Assembly: GCA_030621535.1 (NCBI GenBank) | Contig: JAUXHM010000014.1 | Span: 1-12,568 of the forward strand | From: Candidatus Methanophagales archaeon | Lineage (GTDB): Archaea; Halobacteriota; Syntropharchaeia; Alkanophagales; Methanospirareceae | Direction: 5' to 3' | Length of the DNA stretch: 12,568 bases | In this document: positions 2,499-12,370 of the stretch, piece by piece | How the letters are laid out: every line of letters starts with the position of its first letter | Numbering within the stretch: position 1 is the first letter of the stretch | Notes under the pieces: model-generated | Databases searched by the model: none | Told to the model about the DNA's origin: nothing | What the model saw: the letters and a program-made list of their open reading frames with translations, nothing else | Position numbers and translations under genes: made by a program

Positions 2499-4955
2499 CT
2501 ACTCAACTATAATATCCCCCACCTCTCTTTCATACATGTCTCTCATATAAGCCACCGTGCCCATAATGACCCGGTTTATCGTATAGATAAAAGCTGCGCC
2601 ATACAGAATGCACGCAATGAAGAACAAAGACAGTATATAACTCCATTCGCTTTTTACCTCTTTTAACTTCTTTTCTGTATCCTCAGACATAAGTGACTCA
2701 CCTGCGACCTTGTAGTTCTTTAATGCATCTTCCAGGTATTTCTCCGCCAATCCATAGCTCTCAGAAAAAGTATCGTATTTATAAGGATTCAAAAGAAGAT
2801 GTGTATTCCAGATTCTAATAAGATCGTTCTCCCTGCTATTCATTATGTTTTTATCCGCTTCAATCCGAAAGTGTGTTGCATCGCTTGCTAATTCATCATG
2901 CTTATCCATGAGCAAAGATTCCTCATAGACACATTCCAATTTCTTTTCTTTATCGTTTAGCAGGCCATATATAGTAGCGGCATATTGATATGAAAGAGCG
3001 GATTCAAGCACATTTTCCTCCTTTTTTAATCTGCTTATGTCGCCCATTGCCATTGCGTGCTCTACCGCTTTCTTTATGTCCCACCCTCGCCCTTCAAGCA
3101 TTTTCGCCTCGTCAATCAACACCTCCTCTGTTGTCCTATCCGCACCCGTTGAGATATCCTTTGCATACCCAGATATATCCCAATTGTTCAGCTCGGAATT
3201 CGAACCTACTGTGGATGCGGATACCGAGGCACTCAATAAGTTCTCCACTGCTTTTCCATAGTTTTCCTCTTCACTGGATATAATACCATCATTCAGCGAT
3301 GATATTAGAGAGAGTGCGCCCTTCGTCAAAACAGGTATTTTTTTCCAGTCATCAGCATCTATTTCGCTTCCCTCTACAACTTCCAGCATCTCTACCCCGT
3401 TTGATATTATAACTTCTGAGGATGGATAACTCTTATATAACTGGGTTCCTCTGAATAATCTAAAACTTTCTATCATCTTCGTGATGTTTATCGGCACAAT
3501 CTTCGCCTTTACTTCCATTCTCTTTGCTCCTATCTCGTAAGCACTTATATCATACTTCCACGAATAATCCTTAGGCACTGCCTCCAATCCGGATTCTATT
3601 TTGAGCGTAATATTTCTTGACTCACCAGGAGGTATTTCATAGAAATCCGTCTCTTCTTTTAGCCATTTCCCGTATTCACCACTCTTTGAAAATCGTAAAT
3701 TCCGCACCGGTTTGTAAAGATAGACCTCCGTTAATGTTATATTCGCGCTTTTCTTTTTATATCCACGCTCTTTCAGCTCTATGGTCCCGAAATCAATAGA
3801 AGGGGGAGATGTTGTGAAATAAGGAGAGGTGGAGGAGACTGTAAAATCAACCGGCCATATTATCACTATGGTTATGTCCACATCACCATGCCCAGCCCCT
3901 CCGGCATCTATATACAACCTTCCGTGATACGTTCCTTCGGGTGCATCGTATGGTGCAATGACATGAAGTTCAATGTTTTCACTGCTCTTTCCAGAAACCG
4001 ATCCAGAAGGATTGACTATCTCAATTTCTATCTCTCGGGGATATTCTGTGAGCCAACTATTGAAGTCCATCGTCTCATCACCTTCATTCCTCACCCGCAC
4101 ATCAATATATCTATCATATTTGCGAACAGTGCCCTTTGGCTCATCGAACTTTATTTCCAAATCTCCATCGTGAAGTTTTCCGAGTTTCGGTGGCATCAAT
4201 ATGTATGCTTCAATCGTTATCGAGTCTGGACTTATTTCGGTATGGCTTGTGGTGGTTGTGATTTTGTAGTCCCATGAATATTCGTTTTTAATAATGGGGT
4301 CCTTTTCAGAAGTTATCTGAAATTTAATCTCAGCAAAAGAATCCTTATCTATCTGATTTGGTGGGTCATCTTTAATCGTAACCCACGGGTTTCCACTTAT
4401 TTTTTTTATTTCGATGCCTTTTACATCTTTATACCCATATACCTCGCTGATCGTAATCGTTTCTGATTCTTTGGATTTCTTGCTACCTATCTTTTCTCCT
4501 CTAAAATTGATTGAAGAAGGAGATACCACGATCTTTGCACAGTGTATTATCTTTACAGTGACAGTGGCGACCGTCACTTCTTCAGCTTTTATCTCGAGGT
4601 AATACGATATCTCATCCGCATCCCAAGATGCCTTGATCGTAATAACTTTGAATTCTCCTGGATCGAGGGGAAAATTATCAGAACAGGGAACAATCTTGGG
4701 ATCATGGCTAATGCTCACCACGGTGGCATTTTTTCCATTGTTAGTGATTGTTATAGTTTCCTCTGCTGTATAGAAATCCTCAGAGTGTCTTTTTGAATCA
4801 AATAATACTTTTACCTCAGGCTCAGGCGGAGTTACTACTATTTGAGGATTAGATGCGCTTGCACACCCTATACCTATGCACATTAAAAGGAAAGAAAAGA
4901 CGAAAATAGTAATACAAATACTAAACAATAAGCTCTTCGCCCAACCTCGTGTCAT
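2499..4955 (-). CDS. Bitopic surface protein: signal peptide, four Ig-like domains, helical stalk, C-terminal TM
   Basis: No named family is recognised. Numbered from ATG 4955, the 818-residue product has a signal or anchor helix (about 8-33, with a possible ASA cleavage site). Four beta-sandwich-like domains follow at about 37-137, 138-254, 256-366 and 367-488. The last two repeat the first two with a constant offset near 238 residues: SINF/SIDF, EVYGYK/EVYLYK, YSWDY/YSWKY. A helical stalk (489-770), a TM segment (773-793) and a cytoplasmic tail ending REVGDIIVE complete it, so nearly all of the protein is outside. ATG 4955 is preferred because GAGGAG lies 4 nt upstream; an in-frame GTG at 4967 adds four residues but has no ribosome site. 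It overlaps the upstream gene by 35 bp, suggesting translational coupling. A structural or scaffold role at the envelope is inferred. Confidence 0.9.
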   Translation of the reverse strand: MTRGWAKSLLFSICITIFVFSFLLMCIGIGCASASNPQIVVTPPEPEVKVLFDSKRHSEDFYTAEETITITNNGKNATVVSISHDPKIVPCSDNFPLDPGEFKVITIKASWDADEISYYLEIKAEEVTVATVTVKIIHCAKIVVSPSSINFRGEKIGSKKSKESETITISEVYGYKDVKGIEIKKISGNPWVTIKDDPPNQIDKDSFAEIKFQITSEKDPIIKNEYSWDYKITTTTSHTEISPDSITIEAYILMPPKLGKLHDGDLEIKFDEPKGTVRKYDRYIDVRVRNEGDETMDFNSWLTEYPREIEIEIVNPSGSVSGKSSENIELHVIAPYDAPEGTYHGRLYIDAGGAGHGDVDITIVIIWPVDFTVSSTSPYFTTSPPSIDFGTIELKERGYKKKSANITLTEVYLYKPVRNLRFSKSGEYGKWLKEETDFYEIPPGESRNITLKIESGLEAVPKDYSWKYDISAYEIGAKRMEVKAKIVPINITKMIESFRLFRGTQLYKSYPSSEVIISNGVEMLEVVEGSEIDADDWKKIPVLTKGALSLISSLNDGIISSEEENYGKAVENLLSASVSASTVGSNSELNNWDISGYAKDISTGADRTTEEVLIDEAKMLEGRGWDIKKAVEHAMAMGDISRLKKEENVLESALSYQYAATIYGLLNDKEKKLECVYEESLLMDKHDELASDATHFRIEADKNIMNSRENDLIRIWNTHLLLNPYKYDTFSESYGLAEKYLEDALKNYKVAGESLMSEDTEKKLKEVKSEWSYILSLFFIACILYGAAFIYTINRVIMGTVAYMRDMYEREVGDIIVE

Positions 4956-5880
4956 CCAACTCCTCACCCCATTTCTTGAAATCCATCCATATTATAACGG
5001 TGAAGAAGGAAAGGATAAAAAGATAAATTGCAACCACCTTAAGCGTGTCAAGCATCAACCGGTGATAAACAATTTTTATCTCATTTTCAATCCCTTTCAC
5101 ATTCCCCAGTTCTTTATCCTTATGCTTCTCATATATTTTCTTCGCTTTTTCAAAAGAATCCCTCGCTCTTATTATCTCCATAAAAGCAGCGCCAACGATT
5201 TCTGAAGAGGGATTCCTCGCTTTATCGAGATGTGAACTCGCTTCGTCAATGAACTCGGATGCCTTTCTCATGTCTCTCTTATATACCCATTCGTCTCTCC
5301 TCGACTCGAACTCCATCCTGCTCGCATCGCTTAGCGTATATATGCCACCTTTTTTATATGAAATTGAACTTATCTTCTCATATTCGATCTTAAGCTCTGT
5401 CTCTTTCTCGTTCCTTGAAATATCCTCAAAGAATTTCCCCTCGCTCCTGTAAAACCGCTTAAGTGCAAGCTCTGCGAGCATTGGTATTTCCGATATGTCG
5501 TATCCGCTGAGCGCATTTAGGTCCATATTATCCGCGATTTCAATCGCTTCTATGTGGTCTGAAGGGACTGAACTTTTGCTTAAATCCGCCATTTCTTCAA
5601 AATCGTCAATAATTCCGAGAAAAATATCCACCCACTCCTTTGTACCCCAGGTCACATCCTTACCTTCCATCCCCTGTATCACCGCTTGTGTCTTTGCCTT
5701 TGCAAGATATAACTCACCATAGTCGTCAAATAATTCGGGCTTATCTACTGATATTATATCTTCAAGCAGCTCCCTCTTCATCTCATCTGACCCTGCTGCG
5801 GGTGTGGAAAAAGAGAGGGTGCTGAATATAATCACGGTTAGCATTAATATCATCAATGTAACCAGGCTTCGCTTTTTCAT
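4921..5880 (-). CDS. Bitopic helical surface protein with C-terminal TM and short cytoplasmic tail
   Basis: No named family is recognised. The 319-residue product begins MKKRSLVTLMILMLTVIIF, a signal peptide ending near STPAAGS. About 245 mostly helical, charged residues follow, then a TM segment (about 279-299, VVAIYLFILSFFTVIIWM) and a basic-acidic tail ending DDTRLGEELIV. Its layout resembles the C-terminal half of the downstream 818-residue protein: both have helical stalk, TM and short tail, with similar segments such as IPMLAELAL and IPVLTKGAL. It could be a shorter paralog without the Ig-like part. ATG 5880 is preferred over an in-frame TTG at 5883; no ribosome site precedes it, and a TATA-like box 23-32 nt upstream suggests a leaderless message. 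It is the first gene of the minus-strand arm. Confidence 0.88.
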   Translation of the reverse strand: MKKRSLVTLMILMLTVIIFSTLSFSTPAAGSDEMKRELLEDIISVDKPELFDDYGELYLAKAKTQAVIQGMEGKDVTWGTKEWVDIFLGIIDDFEEMADLSKSSVPSDHIEAIEIADNMDLNALSGYDISEIPMLAELALKRFYRSEGKFFEDISRNEKETELKIEYEKISSISYKKGGIYTLSDASRMEFESRRDEWVYKRDMRKASEFIDEASSHLDKARNPSSEIVGAAFMEIIRARDSFEKAKKIYEKHKDKELGNVKGIENEIKIVYHRLMLDTLKVVAIYLFILSFFTVIIWMDFKKWGEELDDTRLGEELIV

Positions 5881-5928
5881 CAAAAATATATAGCACGATG
5901 AACTATAAATTTTTTAAGGAAATCACTT
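5881..5928. promoter_or_regulatory. Compact divergent promoter between the two arms of the module
   Basis: Only 48 bp separate the two opposing start codons. On the minus strand a TATA-like box (complement of CTATAAATTT, 5903-5912) lies 23-32 nt before ATG 5880, the spacing expected for a leaderless archaeal transcript. On the plus strand AAAAATATATA (5882-5892) could serve as a TATA box, giving a leader of roughly 10-15 nt that includes AAGGA (5916-5920), 8 nt before ATG 5929. The two promoters overlap, so the arms may be co-regulated or compete. Box assignments are by eye. Confidence 0.5.
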
Positions 5929-6864
5929 ATGACACACCTGTTCATCGGAATAGGAAACGCAGGGGGAGCAATTCTCAATGCTTTACTGGAATATAAAGAG
6001 GTGAGAAGAGCCAAGCCAATCGTTATCAAGTCCAAGCCCGAACCGGAAAAAGAGAGCGACAAGGAGGATAAAATAGAGGCGACTCTAAAGAAAGTAAAAG
6101 GCATTGAATTCGCTTTTTTGTTCTCCGGACTTGGTGATTGCAATATAACGCTTCATATAGCAGAAACGCTGACCGGGCTAAACATAAAAGTATTTCTTGT
6201 TGGCGTTTTGCCTGCGAACAGGCGAGAAAAAAGAGAAGAGCTGATAAATGCATATTATTCGATGGAAAAGCTAAAGGAGCATGTTAACTCATTTATAATC
6301 GTTGATAACCAGAGGATAGCGCACCTTCCTAATTTCGAAGATTATTATCCCCAGTATAATAGGTATATCGCATCTTGTATCGCAGACATTCTTATTGGGA
6401 CATCACGACCCGGTTCGTTACCCGAGGAGATGCAATTGTCTATGCATATGGATGAGGTAGTAAAGGCTTTGTCCTTCGAGAGTGAGCCCGGATATGTGGC
6501 ATTATCGAGGGCTTCAGAGCTTACGAAGGGATTATGGGGGTATATCTTCCCTTTTCTGAGGCACAGACCTCTTGACCTCAGAACACTTCTTCATGTTTCA
6601 TTGGATAAGCTCAGCGTTTCTGATGCACCGATAGGCTGTGATAAGAGCATCTCCTTTCTTCGAGTCCCGGAATATTATATTAGAAATAGAAGTGTGGATA
6701 GAGAACTGATAGAGGAATTCATGCCCTCGTATTCAAAAGAGTGCCATCTGGCTGTATCCACTACAAAGCGAAATATAGCAGCGATAACCAATTTGTTCAC
6801 CTATAAGTTCGATCAATTGGAAAGACTGCGGGAGATAAGGGGGCTTGCATATGAGAAAACATGA
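5929..6864 (+). CDS. Degenerate FtsZ/tubulin-fold protein lacking the GGGTGSG loop
   Basis: The order of elements follows FtsZ. There is an N-terminal strand and T1 loop (LFIGIGNAGGAILNALL, residues 4-20). A strand then leads to the T4 position (FAFLFSGLGDCNITLHIAE, 61-79), followed by S5 (IKVFLVGVLP, 86-95), S6 (SFIIVDNQRI, 121-130), an H7-like helix (YNRYIASCIADIL, 143-155) and a C-terminal domain. At T4 the phosphate-binding GGGTG(T/S)G is replaced by SGLGDCN. At the T7-like position (MHMDEVVKAL...GYVALS) only one Asp of the usual Asn/Asp set is evident. The linker at 35-52 is short and charged. It probably binds nucleotide weakly or not at all and may cap, seed or regulate the 900-residue relative encoded downstream (inference). 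It is the first gene of the plus-strand arm, with AAGGA 8 nt before ATG. Confidence 0.75.
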   Translation: MTHLFIGIGNAGGAILNALLEYKEVRRAKPIVIKSKPEPEKESDKEDKIEATLKKVKGIEFAFLFSGLGDCNITLHIAETLTGLNIKVFLVGVLPANRREKREELINAYYSMEKLKEHVNSFIIVDNQRIAHLPNFEDYYPQYNRYIASCIADILIGTSRPGSLPEEMQLSMHMDEVVKALSFESEPGYVALSRASELTKGLWGYIFPFLRHRPLDLRTLLHVSLDKLSVSDAPIGCDKSISFLRVPEYYIRNRSVDRELIEEFMPSYSKECHLAVSTTKRNIAAITNLFTYKFDQLERLREIRGLAYEKT

Positions 6865-8140
6865 GATTATAATTGTTCCATTAGCGTATTTAGCATTAAT
6901 CGCTCTCGGCATCTTCATTCTTTTCAGCACCGGGTCTGACATTGCAATAACCAGTATACTTATTCTCATCCTCGCAACAATAGTAGCGGCGTTCTTAGTT
7001 CGATACCTCGTTACGGTAAGGAAGAGAAGCATAAAGGAGAAGGTGATGGAGCGGGACATCGAGGGGATTGCAAATCGGTATGCAGAACAAATGCGAATTT
7101 TATACGATTTCGAAGATAAATATGCGATAAGCACAAAAGAATTCAGGAATGAGTTGGAGAAGGTAAAAGAGGGTTTATTTGAGCTGGGCTGCGTGGTAAA
7201 CGGGAGGATAAGAATAGACAGAGCGAAGCTCAGAAAAGTAGTTTTTGCAGATGTTGAATGGGTGATTAAGATGTTCGAGGGCATAAAGGACAGGCATGAG
7301 GTCGTCCTTTATTCTCGGATGATAGATAAATGCAGAGACTATTTGGGAAGTATAAAAGAGCTTGAAAACGCAGGGTATGAGAATATACGGGGCAAGATAG
7401 AGGGGATAGAATCTAGGATAAGAGAAAGCGAAGGTGTTGAAGTGGATTCACTTGAGCTATCCATGTTTATGAATGGTGTGGCTTCAATCTTGGAAGAAGC
7501 GCTGAGAATCTGTTTGCGGGATGCACATGATTTAGAAGTGGAAGGGAGAGAGAGTGCAAAAACAGATACATCCAGAATCAGAACCGATATAAAAATTGTC
7601 GAGCACAGCATAGAGCATGGAAACTACGAAAACGCATCAAAAGTATTGAAAAGCGTGATTGAACGATTGGTAGGGGTGTTGAAGGATGCGTTTGAAAGGT
7701 ATAAAGCTCACGCGCTTGAGCTGACAAACGTAGTAGTTGAAATTTCGGATACGGAAGAAGAGAAAAAAGAGGTGGGAGAGATGAGGAAAAGCATAGAGGA
7801 ATGCATGTTGCCTTCACAGATGCGAAAGCTGCGGGGGCATGGTAATGCGCTCATAAGAAAATCCATTTCCGCTCTGGAGGCAGTTTATAACAAGATATTC
7901 GAGATTGAAGGGAAAATACTGAAGGAGAATCCGACAACGGAAGTATATCCCGTGGAATATTGGGCAAGAGATAAGATGGGTGAGATAGAGGAACTTAAGT
8001 CAATGTTAGCCTCTGCCTCCTCGGATACAAAGGGATTTATTCATAGATACAGACTCTTAGCTTCGGATGCTCATTCGAGGTTGATGTATGATTCCGAGAG
8101 GTTAAAGTATATAAAGGCAAATAATATATCTAAAAAGTAA
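6851..8140 (+). CDS. Two-TM protein with long cytoplasmic helical domain
   Basis: No family is recognised. The 429-residue product has two TM helices at about 6-26 and 32-54. About 370 residues follow that are almost entirely charged helix, with heptad-like stretches throughout (for example 60-130 and 180-330). Arg/Lys residues at the N-terminus and just after TM2 (RYLVTVRKRS) place both ends inside the cell, so the helical domain is cytoplasmic. This recalls, by topology only, membrane-anchored FtsZ regulators such as EzrA; no sequence homology is claimed. ATG 6851 is chosen over an in-frame TTG two codons upstream because AAGGGGG ends 7 nt before it. The gene overlaps the preceding one by 14 bp, which suggests coupled translation and a shared role. 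Confidence 0.88.
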   Translation: MRKHEIIIVPLAYLALIALGIFILFSTGSDIAITSILILILATIVAAFLVRYLVTVRKRSIKEKVMERDIEGIANRYAEQMRILYDFEDKYAISTKEFRNELEKVKEGLFELGCVVNGRIRIDRAKLRKVVFADVEWVIKMFEGIKDRHEVVLYSRMIDKCRDYLGSIKELENAGYENIRGKIEGIESRIRESEGVEVDSLELSMFMNGVASILEEALRICLRDAHDLEVEGRESAKTDTSRIRTDIKIVEHSIEHGNYENASKVLKSVIERLVGVLKDAFERYKAHALELTNVVVEISDTEEEKKEVGEMRKSIEECMLPSQMRKLRGHGNALIRKSISALEAVYNKIFEIEGKILKENPTTEVYPVEYWARDKMGEIEELKSMLASASSDTKGFIHRYRLLASDAHSRLMYDSERLKYIKANNISKK

Positions 8141-8173
8141 TATTAATATATTAAAGGGAAAGAGGTATCAGAT
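8105..8173 (+). promoter_or_regulatory. Possible internal promoter before the 146-residue gene
   Basis: A TATATAAAGG motif near the end of the preceding gene and an AT-only run (TATTAATATATTAAA, 8141-8155) in the 33-bp gap both resemble archaeal TATA boxes. The gap also holds GGGAAAGAGG (8156-8165), a purine-rich ribosome site 8 nt before ATG 8174. This is the widest gap in the plus-strand run, so a second transcript start is possible but unproven. Confidence 0.25.
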
Positions 8174-8614
8174 ATGGAACCCCAAAGTATAGGAATACTG
8201 ATTGTTGTCATATTGCTAATCATAGAGGTAGTGGTGATGTTGACAAAGTTAAAAGTGGACAAGATGCTTCTTCTTATGCCCGTCATCGGTGTAATATTCG
8301 CCGTTATCTCCTTTGCGTTAAATGAATACCGGGATAAGATTCTTTCTTCTTTATCAAGCTCTGCTTCTCATGCTGTGATATATGTTATATTAGCAGTAGG
8401 AGTTATATTTGGATTATTTAGTGTCGTGGTGTGGTTTAAGGGAGAGAAAGAAGCAAGAAGACTTAGTTCAGCAGCAAAAAGCATAGATAGCACGGTTGCG
8501 GGGATTGAAAGCGATATAAGAGGGAGCGGGATGGAAATAGAGCATTTCGATGACGAGATGAGCGCTATTAAAACAAAGGTAGAAGATTACGAATCGAAAG
8601 AGAAGGGGGTATGA
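8174..8614 (+). CDS. Small three-TM protein with cytoplasmic coiled-coil tail
   Basis: No family is recognised. The 146-residue product has TM helices at about 5-24, 31-50 and 67-87. A roughly 55-residue charged tail follows, with a heptad-like pattern (RRLSSAAKSIDSTVAGIESDI and onward). The short KLKVDK loop between TM1 and TM2 and the KGEKEARR sequence after TM3 put the C-terminus in the cytoplasm and the N-terminus outside. Such a tail could pair with the coiled coils of neighbouring proteins (inference). It lies 33 bp after the preceding gene and 10 bp before the large tubulin-like gene, so it is very likely part of the same unit. Confidence 0.82.
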   Translation: MEPQSIGILIVVILLIIEVVVMLTKLKVDKMLLLMPVIGVIFAVISFALNEYRDKILSSLSSSASHAVIYVILAVGVIFGLFSVVVWFKGEKEARRLSSAAKSIDSTVAGIESDIRGSGMEIEHFDDEMSAIKTKVEDYESKEKGV

Positions 8615-8624
8615 TACTGAATAG

Positions 8625-11327
8625 ATGGAAAAGGGAGAAGATACGGTAAACAGGATTGTCATTGGAATTGGTGGGCAGGGAGGCACCATCGTAAATAATA
8701 TATTGCGAATGCTGAAGTTCAAAGCAGGGAAAGCGCCGAAGAATGAGGAGTTTTTGATTATAGATACTGATCAGGCATCTGCGAACGCATGCAGCGAAGT
8801 AGAAGAGCGGAAGAAAATAATACTAAGCAGACCGGATACGATTTTGATGAAGAACACCAATAGATGGCTTCCTGACCCATATCTTTCGGCTGCCGGTGCG
8901 GGATGTGGACAACATCGGATATATGGTAGGGCGATGTATAATGTGCATCGAGAGAGGATATTCAGTGCGATAGGTTCAGCGGCGTCGGAATTGAGGAACA
9001 GAACCGGTGGTAAGGACTTCTTCATTCTGATGGTGTGCGCATTCGGCGGGGGAACGGGGTCGAGCATGCTACTTGACGTTGCAATAGACATACGCGATTG
9101 GATATCAAAACAGTTTGGGTCTGAGCCTGTGATGTTTGGAATTGGTATTCTCCCTTCGAGCAAGGAATCCGTGCTTCCGACGGGTAATGCCCTCGGTACA
9201 ATGAAAGAACTTCATTTCCTTATGTCCCATACTGAGGACATCATAATAGATGACAAGAATTATTCTAATCCATTCAAATTGTTTTTCCTTTTAGGTAGAG
9301 ACCTTCAGGGGCAGAACCGGGACGAGGAACTGGAAAGGGCGATACCAAGGTTCCTTCTCGACCTCGGATTCCTGCCGGGTGGAACGGTCGAAACGAAAGG
9401 CAAGTGGCTCGACCTCAATGACCTTCAGAACAGAGCAAGGGGTTACGAAAACAGGTTTGATTCCCTGGGTTACTACGAGTGCGTATTCCCTACTGAGAAA
9501 TTATTTTTGTATTATGACATTGAGGATGAGATACCAGTGGTTAGACAAAGATTGGTAGAGATAGAGGCAAAAATATCGGATATAAGGGGGAAAATAGACT
9601 CACAAAGGGGAGAATTGGAAAGGTTCGAGGGCAGGATAAAGGACGTTCAGCGAGAGATAGATAGTTACGAATCGGCGGCGGGAATGTTCACTCACGTGAA
9701 TGCGGCTGCAACTACGGATGCAAAGGCGAAACTGGATAGAGCGAGGAAGAAATTATCGGGCTTGAAGGAGGAGGTGTTCGACCTTGAGATAAGGGCAAGC
9801 GACACAGAAGAGGAGAAGAGACTGGCAGAGCGTAATTTAGAACGGCTTGAGGCGCTTAAGAACAAGCTTTTCCGCGAGATAACTTCGCCCCTGAACACGA
9901 GGAGTTATCATCAGATAGAATTATCAGAAGAGGAGATAAGGGGCTTAAAGCGGAGCAGAGAAGACCTGAAAAATCTCTCCTTTTTCGAGATTATGAAAAA
10001 TCTCGACCGCGAAGAAGAGTACTTCAGGTGGACGCATTCGCCGATTAATGAGGGCGACGTCATATTCAATCCGATGGTAAACTACCGGCATTCGATAGGG
10101 AATGCCATGACATCAAAATATATAGACGTCCTTCATGATTACGGATTCCTTACGTTGGATGCGCAAGGGAATGTGGTGAATGAGGAGGAGAAGTTCGGGC
10201 ACTTCATCGCGGTGTTGAGCACAAGGGCGGACAATTTTGATGATGCGAGGCTCGGCGGCGGCGCATTTAAGAGCATGGTGACAGAAAGATTTACAAAGGA
10301 TGCGGACGTTCTGAAATTGGATACACCGGCACGTGCGCACAGCTTTGCCATGTACACGCTTATGATTGGGGTTCAACCATGGGCGCCTGGTCCCGGGCTT
10401 CCGCCGAGACTTCGTGAATTGGAATGGCTTGAGAAAGCATATAGCGCAAGCGATTTCTCTAAACTGCCGCGGCACCACTCTCTTTTCTATGGGACCCCAA
10501 AACCATTCTCTGAGATCACCGGAGTACCATACACACCTGGTGCGGAGGAAAAAAACAGGGATATGGTAACGAATTACTGGAGGGATTACGAGATAATAGA
10601 GCCCGAAGCAATCTGGAATAACGTTCCTGTCGTGCTTGCACAGTGCTTGAAGATGTTCGATGATTTGCTAACTGGCCTGGATATGGCAGAGGATATAAAA
10701 AATGTGCGTGTCCCGGACCCGGAGAGCTACTCAATAGCAAATCTTACGATGCTGGTTCACGGTTTTGAAAACGCGAGTAAAAGCATGGAAAAGGTGAAGA
10801 GATGGACTAAAGAAGCGGAAAGAGGATTTGTGCTATTGAAAAACGAGCTTGATGAATTGATATTTAAATTAAAAGGAATGGAAAGGGCACCCGCTGAAGA
10901 TAAAGCAGAGAAAATGCTGAGAATGATAGACGACTCCTCAAGAAATATGGAGATATTGCTTGACAGGATTGAAGACCTGTCGAACAGGTTCAGTGACGAT
11001 ATAAAATCGGTCATTGAAAAAGCGATGGGTTTTCTCGGCAGGATACCTTCTGACGAGACTACCTCAAGCGTGATAAGGCATATAACGAAGGCTGAGTCCG
11101 AGATTTCGAAGCTAAGAGAGGATAGCATGAAAGCGGCAAAGGGGATAAAAGAGATGGGCGGTCCACTCGCAATGATGTTGTCCTCGCTAAAGGAACTGAA
11201 AAAGATAACGGAATCGGTGGGATCAGAAGCTGAAACCAAAGGTGGCGAAGGGAGGAAAGGGAAAAAGAAGGGTGTAGAGCTGCCTGATTTGTCACTAAAT
11301 ATGGGAAGGGGAGAAGAAGGAGAATGA
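8625..11327 (+). CDS. Large FtsZ/tubulin-like GTPase with coiled-coil insertion
   Basis: The N-terminal domain carries the tubulin/FtsZ nucleotide-binding signature: T1 GIGGQGG (residues 14-20), IDTD (46-49), GAGCGQ (91-96) and T4 AFGGGTGSS (139-147), followed by the S5-like MFGIGILPSS. It fits the large tubulin-like families of bacteria and archaea (the FtsZ-like group described by Makarova and Koonin, and Pfam Tubulin_2; placement from memory). A long coiled coil (about 303-450) interrupts the globular part. A beta-rich domain resumes at about 475-670 (including FGHFIAVLSTRADNFDDARLGGG). A second coiled coil spans about 715-865, then a Gly/Lys linker and a short C-terminal peptide (VELPDLSLNMG). 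No TM segment is seen. It is about 2.5 times the length of FtsZ. It probably forms GTP-dependent filaments and is the likely core of this module. It starts 10 bp after the preceding gene. Confidence 0.88.
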   Translation: MEKGEDTVNRIVIGIGGQGGTIVNNILRMLKFKAGKAPKNEEFLIIDTDQASANACSEVEERKKIILSRPDTILMKNTNRWLPDPYLSAAGAGCGQHRIYGRAMYNVHRERIFSAIGSAASELRNRTGGKDFFILMVCAFGGGTGSSMLLDVAIDIRDWISKQFGSEPVMFGIGILPSSKESVLPTGNALGTMKELHFLMSHTEDIIIDDKNYSNPFKLFFLLGRDLQGQNRDEELERAIPRFLLDLGFLPGGTVETKGKWLDLNDLQNRARGYENRFDSLGYYECVFPTEKLFLYYDIEDEIPVVRQRLVEIEAKISDIRGKIDSQRGELERFEGRIKDVQREIDSYESAAGMFTHVNAAATTDAKAKLDRARKKLSGLKEEVFDLEIRASDTEEEKRLAERNLERLEALKNKLFREITSPLNTRSYHQIELSEEEIRGLKRSREDLKNLSFFEIMKNLDREEEYFRWTHSPINEGDVIFNPMVNYRHSIGNAMTSKYIDVLHDYGFLTLDAQGNVVNEEEKFGHFIAVLSTRADNFDDARLGGGAFKSMVTERFTKDADVLKLDTPARAHSFAMYTLMIGVQPWAPGPGLPPRLRELEWLEKAYSASDFSKLPRHHSLFYGTPKPFSEITGVPYTPGAEEKNRDMVTNYWRDYEIIEPEAIWNNVPVVLAQCLKMFDDLLTGLDMAEDIKNVRVPDPESYSIANLTMLVHGFENASKSMEKVKRWTKEAERGFVLLKNELDELIFKLKGMERAPAEDKAEKMLRMIDDSSRNMEILLDRIEDLSNRFSDDIKSVIEKAMGFLGRIPSDETTSSVIRHITKAESEISKLREDSMKAAKGIKEMGGPLAMMLSSLKELKKITESVGSEAETKGGEGRKGKKKGVELPDLSLNMGRGEEGE

Positions 11328-12370
11328 AACGCTTATTTTATGTTTCACTTGCTGTTTTGGCACTCACACTTTTAGTTTTATCCGTGGGAATTGGATTTGC
11401 AGCAGTTCAGGATGTGCTGAGGCTTGATGAGGAGAACTCGTATGTCCTCAACTTGGAGACCGGAAGTAAGCTGAGATACGTGGAGTTTTTGGATAGCAAA
11501 CAATTTGAAGGCGATAGGTTGGAATTCCACATATATGTGAGCAAGACCGGGAATCCCATTTTAGATGATTATGTCTTAGAATTGAGGACGAACATGGAGA
11601 ATCCTGAATGGAAGTTTGGTGATAATTTCTCTCATTCTGCAAATTGGATTGTCTGGAAGGGAAAGGAAGAGCATGAGCGTATGGTTCCAACGGTAATATT
11701 GTCTGGCGATGTCCCAAAACCAATAAGAAAAGTAAAAGAGCCGGGGTTCGAAGCATACGACATATATGGAATTGGCGAGGGTGAAGTGTATGTTGAACTA
11801 ACTGTTGGGACGTCGAAGGATGGGAGGACATTAGAAAGAATTATACAAAAATTGGAACCGTCAATGAAGTTCTTCTCGACGAATAAAGAGATTCAAGATG
11901 CGAAGACTGAAATGGATAAAAATTTAGAAGAGGCAAGAGGTAAGATAGGTGGAACCGATTTGGAAGAGGATATACGAAAGTTATATGAAGAAGGCCATCC
12001 AGGTTGGGCATCAGAGCTATCGGAACATTATAAGAAATTATCTGTTGCGGCTGAGCCGCCTCCTCTCTCACTTTATATCATCTTGGCGGTAATATTGGGA
12101 TTGATACTGGGTTCTGCATTCGTGTACGTGTATGTTTCGAGAGGAGGGGGTAAAGGAGTGGATGTAAGTCAGATTTCAGCGGAGTTGAATGATACATCGG
12201 GGAAGATAGAGGAGAAATCAAGTTCAATCAATGCGATATCAACGAGGTTTGCGAGGAGTGAGGATGATGAGAAGAGGGGTGTTGCAAGAGAGTTGATACG
12301 GATAAGGGCGAGTTTGAATGAGATTTCGAATGAGATAAGGACGATTGCAGATAGGATTAGAGAACGATAA
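11324..12370 (+). CDS. Bitopic protein: signal peptide, outer beta domain, TM, cytoplasmic coiled coil
   Basis: No family is recognised. The 348-residue product begins with a signal peptide or anchor (residues 1-27). An outer beta-rich domain (about 28-175) is followed by a helical stretch (176-240) and a PPP hinge. A TM helix (248-271) and a basic RGGGK turn lead to a cytoplasmic coiled coil (281-347, SQISAELNDTSGKIEEKSSS onward). Unlike the two minus-strand surface proteins, whose tails are about 20-25 residues, this one sends about 75 residues into the cytoplasm and could bind the coiled-coil parts of the tubulin-like protein directly. The ATG overlaps the preceding stop as ATGA, with GGGGAG 10 nt upstream, so translation is probably coupled. 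It is the last gene of the plus-strand arm. Confidence 0.9.
   Translation: MKRLFYVSLAVLALTLLVLSVGIGFAAVQDVLRLDEENSYVLNLETGSKLRYVEFLDSKQFEGDRLEFHIYVSKTGNPILDDYVLELRTNMENPEWKFGDNFSHSANWIVWKGKEEHERMVPTVILSGDVPKPIRKVKEPGFEAYDIYGIGEGEVYVELTVGTSKDGRTLERIIQKLEPSMKFFSTNKEIQDAKTEMDKNLEEARGKIGGTDLEEDIRKLYEEGHPGWASELSEHYKKLSVAAEPPPLSLYIILAVILGLILGSAFVYVYVSRGGGKGVDVSQISAELNDTSGKIEEKSSSINAISTRFARSEDDEKRGVARELIRIRASLNEISNEIRTIADRIRER

Follow-up and report, generated by a model that had tools for sequence, protein, structure and literature searches.

The DNA analyzed here (the window) comprises the first 12,568 nucleotides of contig JAUXHM010000014.1 from a Candidatus Methanophagales archaeon (GCA_030621535.1; contig C27 of a genome that is ~61% complete). 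Seven genes lie on it, arranged as two arms that diverge: A822 and B320 are minus-strand genes, and C311, D431, E146, F900 and G348 are plus-strand genes (Table 1). Two of the products belong to the tubulin superfamily, and the other five are predicted to be membrane proteins. A check of the open reading frames found all seven where a first-pass annotation of the sequence had placed them. Only C311 and F900 scored above Pfam cut-offs. No Pfam family passed its cut-off for A822, B320, D431, E146 or G348, and the Pfam lists of the seven proteins contain no von Willebrand A (vWA) or small-GTPase family, as the first-pass annotation had also remarked. The promoter region that it had assigned to both arms exists as a divergent intergenic region, whose length is 48 bp rather than the proposed 45 bp if B320 starts at ATG 5880 and not at TTG 5883; the former is probably the true start.

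Table 1. Positions of the genes and features in the window
Feature	Position	Strand	Description
A822	2499..4967	-	Start resembling a signal peptide; the large predicted ectodomain is Ig-like at first and helical after that; C-terminal membrane segment at residues 778-796
B320	4921..5883	-	Start resembling a signal peptide; the predicted ectodomain is helical; membrane segment at residues 280-298; conserved tail with LGEELIV at its end
Divergent promoter region common to both arms	5881..5928	.	48 bp; putative promoter role
TATA-like CTATAAATTTTT	5903-5914		Within the divergent promoter region
C311	5929..6864	+	Tubulin fold, GTP loop lost (pseudo-tubulin)
D431	6845..8140	+	Predicted membrane hairpin at the N terminus and a long helical domain in the cytosol
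E146	8174..8614	+	Three membrane segments and charged helical tail; orthologs seen only with F900
F900	8625..11327	+	FtsZl1/Tubulin_2 with GGGTGSS intact; has a coiled coil, a helical C-terminal part, a linker and the C-terminal peptide ELPDLSL
G348	11324..12370	+	Start resembling a signal sequence; predicted ectodomain; membrane segment at residues 249-267; coiled coil in the cytosol; orthologs found only where F900 is present

The first-pass annotation had proposed two proteins of the tubulin fold, one apparently active and one degenerate, and the loop sequences bear this out. C311 matched the Pfam Tubulin family narrowly (E value of 7.8e-8, 33.3 bits, cut-off 33), and its full tubulin fold, with N-terminal nucleotide-binding and C-terminal domains, was predicted confidently. 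The T4 GGGTG loop is missing from C311 and from 43 other rows of its type (44 of 44) in a 62-row alignment and is kept in the 18 remaining rows. Judged by this loop, C311 would not be an active tubulin-type GTPase.

F900 is, by family match and tree position, a member of the published FtsZl1/Tubulin_2 family and is thus not itself undescribed. It matched Tubulin_2 (PF13809) with an E value of 1.3e-21 and 77.7 bits (cut-off 27) and grouped with FtsZl1 proteins in a tree (5 rows, support 98/95), where the program warned that the long branches of F900 and of a bacterial-type FtsZl1 row may join falsely. Its GGGTGSS loop, which differs from the GGGTG(S/T)G type by a final G to S change, is invariant in 29 of 29 F900 rows. 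The AlphaFold2 (AF2) model has helices at residues 290-350 and 360-419 and several more across 667-872, with residues ~420-660 modeled at low confidence, and coiled-coil family matches agree with the FtsZl1 layout of an extended coiled coil followed by a mostly helical C-terminal domain. Structure prediction bore on the tubulin fold of F900 over ~residues 10-175 only. Among the matches shown in a sequence search for solved relatives, at an E value of 0.012 and weaker, there was no tubulin or FtsZ.

Hydrophobic segments resembling transmembrane ones were found in all five remaining proteins. Topology was read from simple hydropathy alone, with the second segment of D431 set by eye, so the membrane sides given here are predicted ones. 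A822 ends in a conserved tail of ~25 residues, in which R799, G803, Y807, D810 and G817 are invariant (15 rows); in the tail of B320, W305, L314, G315 and E317 are invariant (15 rows). Tails resembling both occur in haloarchaea, Methanoperedens and Hydrothermarchaeota, the A-like one fairly well kept. Some A relatives match Pfam PF22544, PF11614, PF15780 or PF06280, which we take to be Ig-like or Fn3-type families. No solved relative of A was found by sequence at E values up to 1.

To evaluate how common the genes are among relatives, a search for A822, C311, D431 and F900 covered 59 genomes, namely the window genome and 58 others. Matches numbered 30, 29, 29 and 29, respectively. All four genes were present in 26 genomes and none in 27; the remaining six (G003, G006, G009, G011, G017 and G022) hold partial sets, several of which are fragments or lie at contig ends. 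Matches were confined to the family of the window, that of the anaerobic methanotrophic archaea of group 1 (ANME-1), except for two Syntrophoarchaeum-like genomes (G040 and G042). Of A, G006 shows two short matching stretches from the C-terminal part (C198:7516-7712) and nothing more, which may be what is left of a decayed gene.

Gene order was read in 20 stretches from 13 genomes. The unbroken order A-B<>C-D-E-F-G was found in seven of them (G004, G005, G010, G018, G023, G030 and G042; the E gene of G010 was missed by the gene caller, and in stretch L156 E went uncalled because an opposite-strand frame was retained). In the other six, the genes lie in two or three pieces: A-B<>C-D is separate from E-F-G in G015, G024, G027 and G033, G021 has A, B<>C-D and E-F-G, and G040 has A-B apart from C-D-E-F-G. 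E-F-G thus lies away from C-D in 5 of 13 genomes. Since other genes continue past the break in all six, the splits are not merely contig ends. Linkage across genomes rules out accidental neighbors and upholds the proposal of a recurring system with linked membrane partners, the membrane genes being mostly linked and otherwise kept in the same genome. The proposed seven-gene unit did not survive, because E-F-G or A-B can sit apart.

The system extends well beyond these relatives. A profile built on A had matches in 59 of the 392 genomes of the phylum; 40 of these 59 belong to the ANME-1 family or are G040 and G042. The other 19 comprise eight genomes of haloarchaeal type, with E values of 3e-22 to 2e-44, and 11 weak matches (9e-10 to 9e-4), many in very long proteins. 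The common order in the eight haloarchaeal-type genomes is C, (Y), D, a second tubulin T, a PEGA-like protein P, B and A, with B directly upstream of A in all eight; Q, R and S precede C in six, and R is a third tubulin-like protein. A C-family scan of 84,980 species with two short patterns returned 27 loci with a C relative; this is not a full count, because one of the patterns, GGGTGCG, cannot find degenerate C genes such as C311. C, D, T, B and A occur together in 23 of the 27 loci and R in 19. Of the four incomplete loci, L232 lacks only A, whose place is beyond the fetched flank, L243 and L226 reach a contig end, and L249 has only C and a weak A. The two counts overlap, since at least L226, L235, L244 and L248 are G022, G331, G337 and G282 of the A-profile set. 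Loci with A, B, C, D and T belong to Methanoperedens, Hydrothermarchaeota and haloarchaea, and the divergent layout of the window, A-B<>C followed by D and T, recurs in Methanoperedens (L225 and L242) and Hydrothermarchaeota (L245).

Profile comparison with hhalign between window-type and haloarchaeal proteins gave 98.7 for B and 96.7 over 376 columns for D, so that the homology of both is firm at the profile level. A is conserved in haloarchaea as well, and single proteins of Halobacterium salinarum retrieved their ANME-1 counterparts for A, B and C. As the 27-locus scan shows, the core of A, B, C and D is not specific to ANME-1. E and G were compared with haloarchaeal X, Y, P, S, Q, D and B and have no counterpart among these seven families, the best probability being 21.3. 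By homology and gene content, the shared unit is A, B, C and D plus another tubulin. Only in ANME-1 and the Syntrophoarchaeum-like genomes is F900 this other tubulin; in ANME-1, F900 with E and G stands in for T.

The tree of tubulin relatives contained 44 of 46 rows, two having been dropped at sequence extraction; FtsZ and CetZ labels were assigned by us, the latter from motifs. Single clades were recovered for C (100/99), T, R, FtsZ and CetZ-like proteins (100/100 each) and FtsZl1. C311 thus falls outside the canonical CetZ clade, with six CetZ-like rows forming another. Branches are long, the order among clades is unsafe, and the program warned of a false T-R join. Outside this locus, the window genome encodes two proteins of the FtsZ clade and one of the CetZ clade. 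When G040 and G042 (95% and 92% complete) were searched with the Tubulin family, each yielded five genes, with scores that fit two FtsZ, one CetZ-like, C and F and leave none for T; the same search did recover T in G236 and G254.

In H. salinarum R1, the haloarchaeal set lies on plasmid PHS2 as eleven genes, from OE_RS12025 (A) to OE_RS12075 (Q). The annotation calls C and R cell division protein FtsZ and lists the remaining nine as hypothetical. The accessible part of an expression paper on H. salinarum (PMC8303175) does not mention the plasmid genes. A and T each occur in 5 of 72,556 plasmid records, the same five, all haloarchaeal, one being that of Natrinema sp. SYSU A 869. No A, C or F relatives were found in viral_contigs by pattern-based scans, which work best for close relatives, and a virus origin was set aside. 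Comparison of 9 proteins with PHROGs gave one match, between a tape-measure family and the helical C-terminal part of F900 (E value of 2e-4). A defense system was likewise dropped, as PADLOC matched only the F900 coiled coil, at an E value of 1.5e-4 or weaker.

Several further observations were made at these loci. One ANME-1 genome, G022 (L176 and L177), has a haloarchaeal-type version beside a usual-type A: B', A', a 437-amino-acid (aa) second tubulin, a 696-aa D', two PEGA-domain proteins, an AAA ATPase and a beta-propeller protein, with a C' tubulin with an intact GTP loop at a contig end. The 437-aa tubulin seemed to carry the tail motif a third time, an idea that was dropped because the motif was not seen at the ends of the other T proteins inspected. 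Next to A in several haloarchaeal loci, on the opposite strand (L277 446-7591; also L206, L208, L213 and L219), lie genes for a beta-propeller protein and an ATP-binding protein, among others, and a relative of this ATP-binding protein is found in L176 of G022; these neighbors may be another conserved part. The R family (L218 392-2020) has an N-terminal CxxC...H zinc-finger-like stretch, and one R member, from Halorubrum, has KGTGCG in place of the expected GGGTGCG. Some ANME-1 genomes (L178, L179 and L180) encode a Tubulin_2 protein of another type (906-1058 aa), whose neighbor in L179 is weakly GTPase-like. The window also holds part of a gene that is presumably that of the DNA polymerase II large subunit; its frame, at 3-2441, contains low-complexity stretches (e.g., MQDAGCRMQ) that resemble translated short DNA repeats.

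FtsZl1/Tubulin_2 operons have been described by Makarova and Koonin in 2010 (PMC2875224). In the parts of that source available to us, FtsZl1 proteins share with F900 the N-terminal FtsZ-like domain, the coiled coil, the helical C-terminal part and membrane neighbors. The seven genes of the window differ in lacking the vWA gene of most published operons and the diverged GTPase gene that is frequent there, in adding a second, degenerate tubulin, and in having A, B and D in common with a haloarchaeal system that uses a protein other than FtsZl1 as its second tubulin. The accessible text of Santana-Molina et al. (2023; PMC9871819) describes Halo.Tub, CetZ-like proteins of Halobacterota outside canonical CetZ, with quasi-tandem copies and coiled-coil neighbors. 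By description rather than by sequence, these are probably the C, T or R genes; that text names neither A, B or D partners nor a degenerate member and makes no connection to ANME-1 or FtsZl1, and in the literature searched, as far as its text was accessible, the name is used only there. From CetZ itself (structures 3zid, 4b45 and 4b46), C differs by its separate clade, its lost GTP loop and its dedicated membrane partners. The accessible portions of work on Borg elements (PMC11208441 and PMC9879509) report tubulin-superfamily genes in these elements of Methanoperedens, a likeness by description only; two genomes of Methanoperedens hold the A-D/T module. No paper joining A, B or D to these tubulins was found, which is weak evidence given that subscription papers were mostly outside the search. 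The first-pass view of an undescribed, distinct system is thus mostly supported, with the reservations that F900 belongs to a published family and that, besides the FtsZl1 operons, the quasi-tandem Halo.Tub copies, so far as that source could be consulted, are a hint in print of the haloarchaeal version.

Gene content indicates that the conserved system encodes at least two tubulin-superfamily proteins and dedicated membrane partners. There is, in our judgment, slightly better than an even chance that the seven genes are its ANME-1 and Syntrophoarchaeum version, in which a tubulin scaffold with membrane partners positions outer domains. GTP-bound F900 (or T) would assemble filaments beneath the membrane, with C311, its GTP loop lost, acting as a non-hydrolyzing subunit, cap or adaptor. 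D431, E146 and G348 would tether the assembly to the membrane, and the short conserved tails of A and B would dock on it from inside, so that the inner scaffold would position or cluster the outer domains. The task is likely the shaping or maintenance of the envelope or the building of a surface contact structure, and not ordinary division, because FtsZ-clade and CetZ-clade genes are present elsewhere in the same genome. The broader proposition, that of an undescribed and widespread trans-envelope machine with a cytosolic scaffold of two or three tubulin types (one degenerate in ANME-1) and hairpin or single-pass links to large extracellular proteins, in which the second tubulin was swapped between T and the distantly related FtsZl1-type F900 and the envelope partners were kept, falls somewhat short of even chances.

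A number of observations weigh against the scaffold reading. Four basic residues precede the C-terminal membrane segment of A822 and two follow it, so the positive-inside rule opposes a cytosolic tail, and haloarchaeal B tails are poorly kept and highly variable. The overall model of F900 is poor (predicted local distance difference test score of 61, predicted template modeling score of 0.37), which bears on its proposed polymerization, and its ELPDLSL-type C-terminal peptide is missing in both Syntrophoarchaeum-like genomes. The link of E and G to the A-D core depends on ANME-1 and near kin, and 6 of the 59 genomes hold a partial set only. Filaments, GTP binding, a shared complex and membrane sides are all inferred features.

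The work could instead be done by the ectodomains, with the tubulins sorting, anchoring and serving as an assembly platform for a surface machine of adhesion, cell contact or secretion. The large predicted ectodomains of A, B and G, to which haloarchaeal P and Y can be added, are consistent with this, as is a patchy distribution of the kind expected for an accessory surface trait; with no pilin, secretion ATPase or sortase family in the Pfam lists of the seven proteins, we consider it rather unlikely. A reduced FtsZl1 membrane-remodeling system of the published kind, with the remaining genes as lineage-specific accessories, would account for the identity of F900, for the many unnamed membrane proteins in published operons and for a Tubulin_2 gene ~6 kb from C in G254. 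It would account neither for the lack of vWA and GTPase genes among the seven nor for A-D occurring with T, without F900, in haloarchaea, Methanoperedens and Hydrothermarchaeota, and is improbable.

More doubtful still is a sensor or signaling device with tubulin folds as nucleotide switches rather than filaments. The lost loop of C311 and a C-terminal half of F900 that resisted modeling would suit it; up to three tubulin-type genes per locus, and Pfam lists for the seven without a kinase, receiver or DNA-binding family, argue otherwise. The five haloarchaeal plasmid records raise a partition or maintenance device of plasmids or mobile elements, as with TubZ, that was later fixed in chromosomes. 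Ectodomain proteins are not needed for partition, viral_contigs yielded no relatives, and the complete four-gene set sits in 26 of 59 ANME-1-related genomes, which makes such an origin very improbable.

The scaffold reading aside, methane oxidizers and haloarchaea have a gene system in which tubulin relatives are combined with conserved partners that are transmembrane and probably extracellular, and it includes a tubulin without the GTP loop. Little is understood of archaeal cytoskeletons other than FtsZ and CetZ. Because the module is present in H. salinarum R1, the function of a multi-tubulin system could be tested in a cultured organism and not only in uncultured ANME-1.
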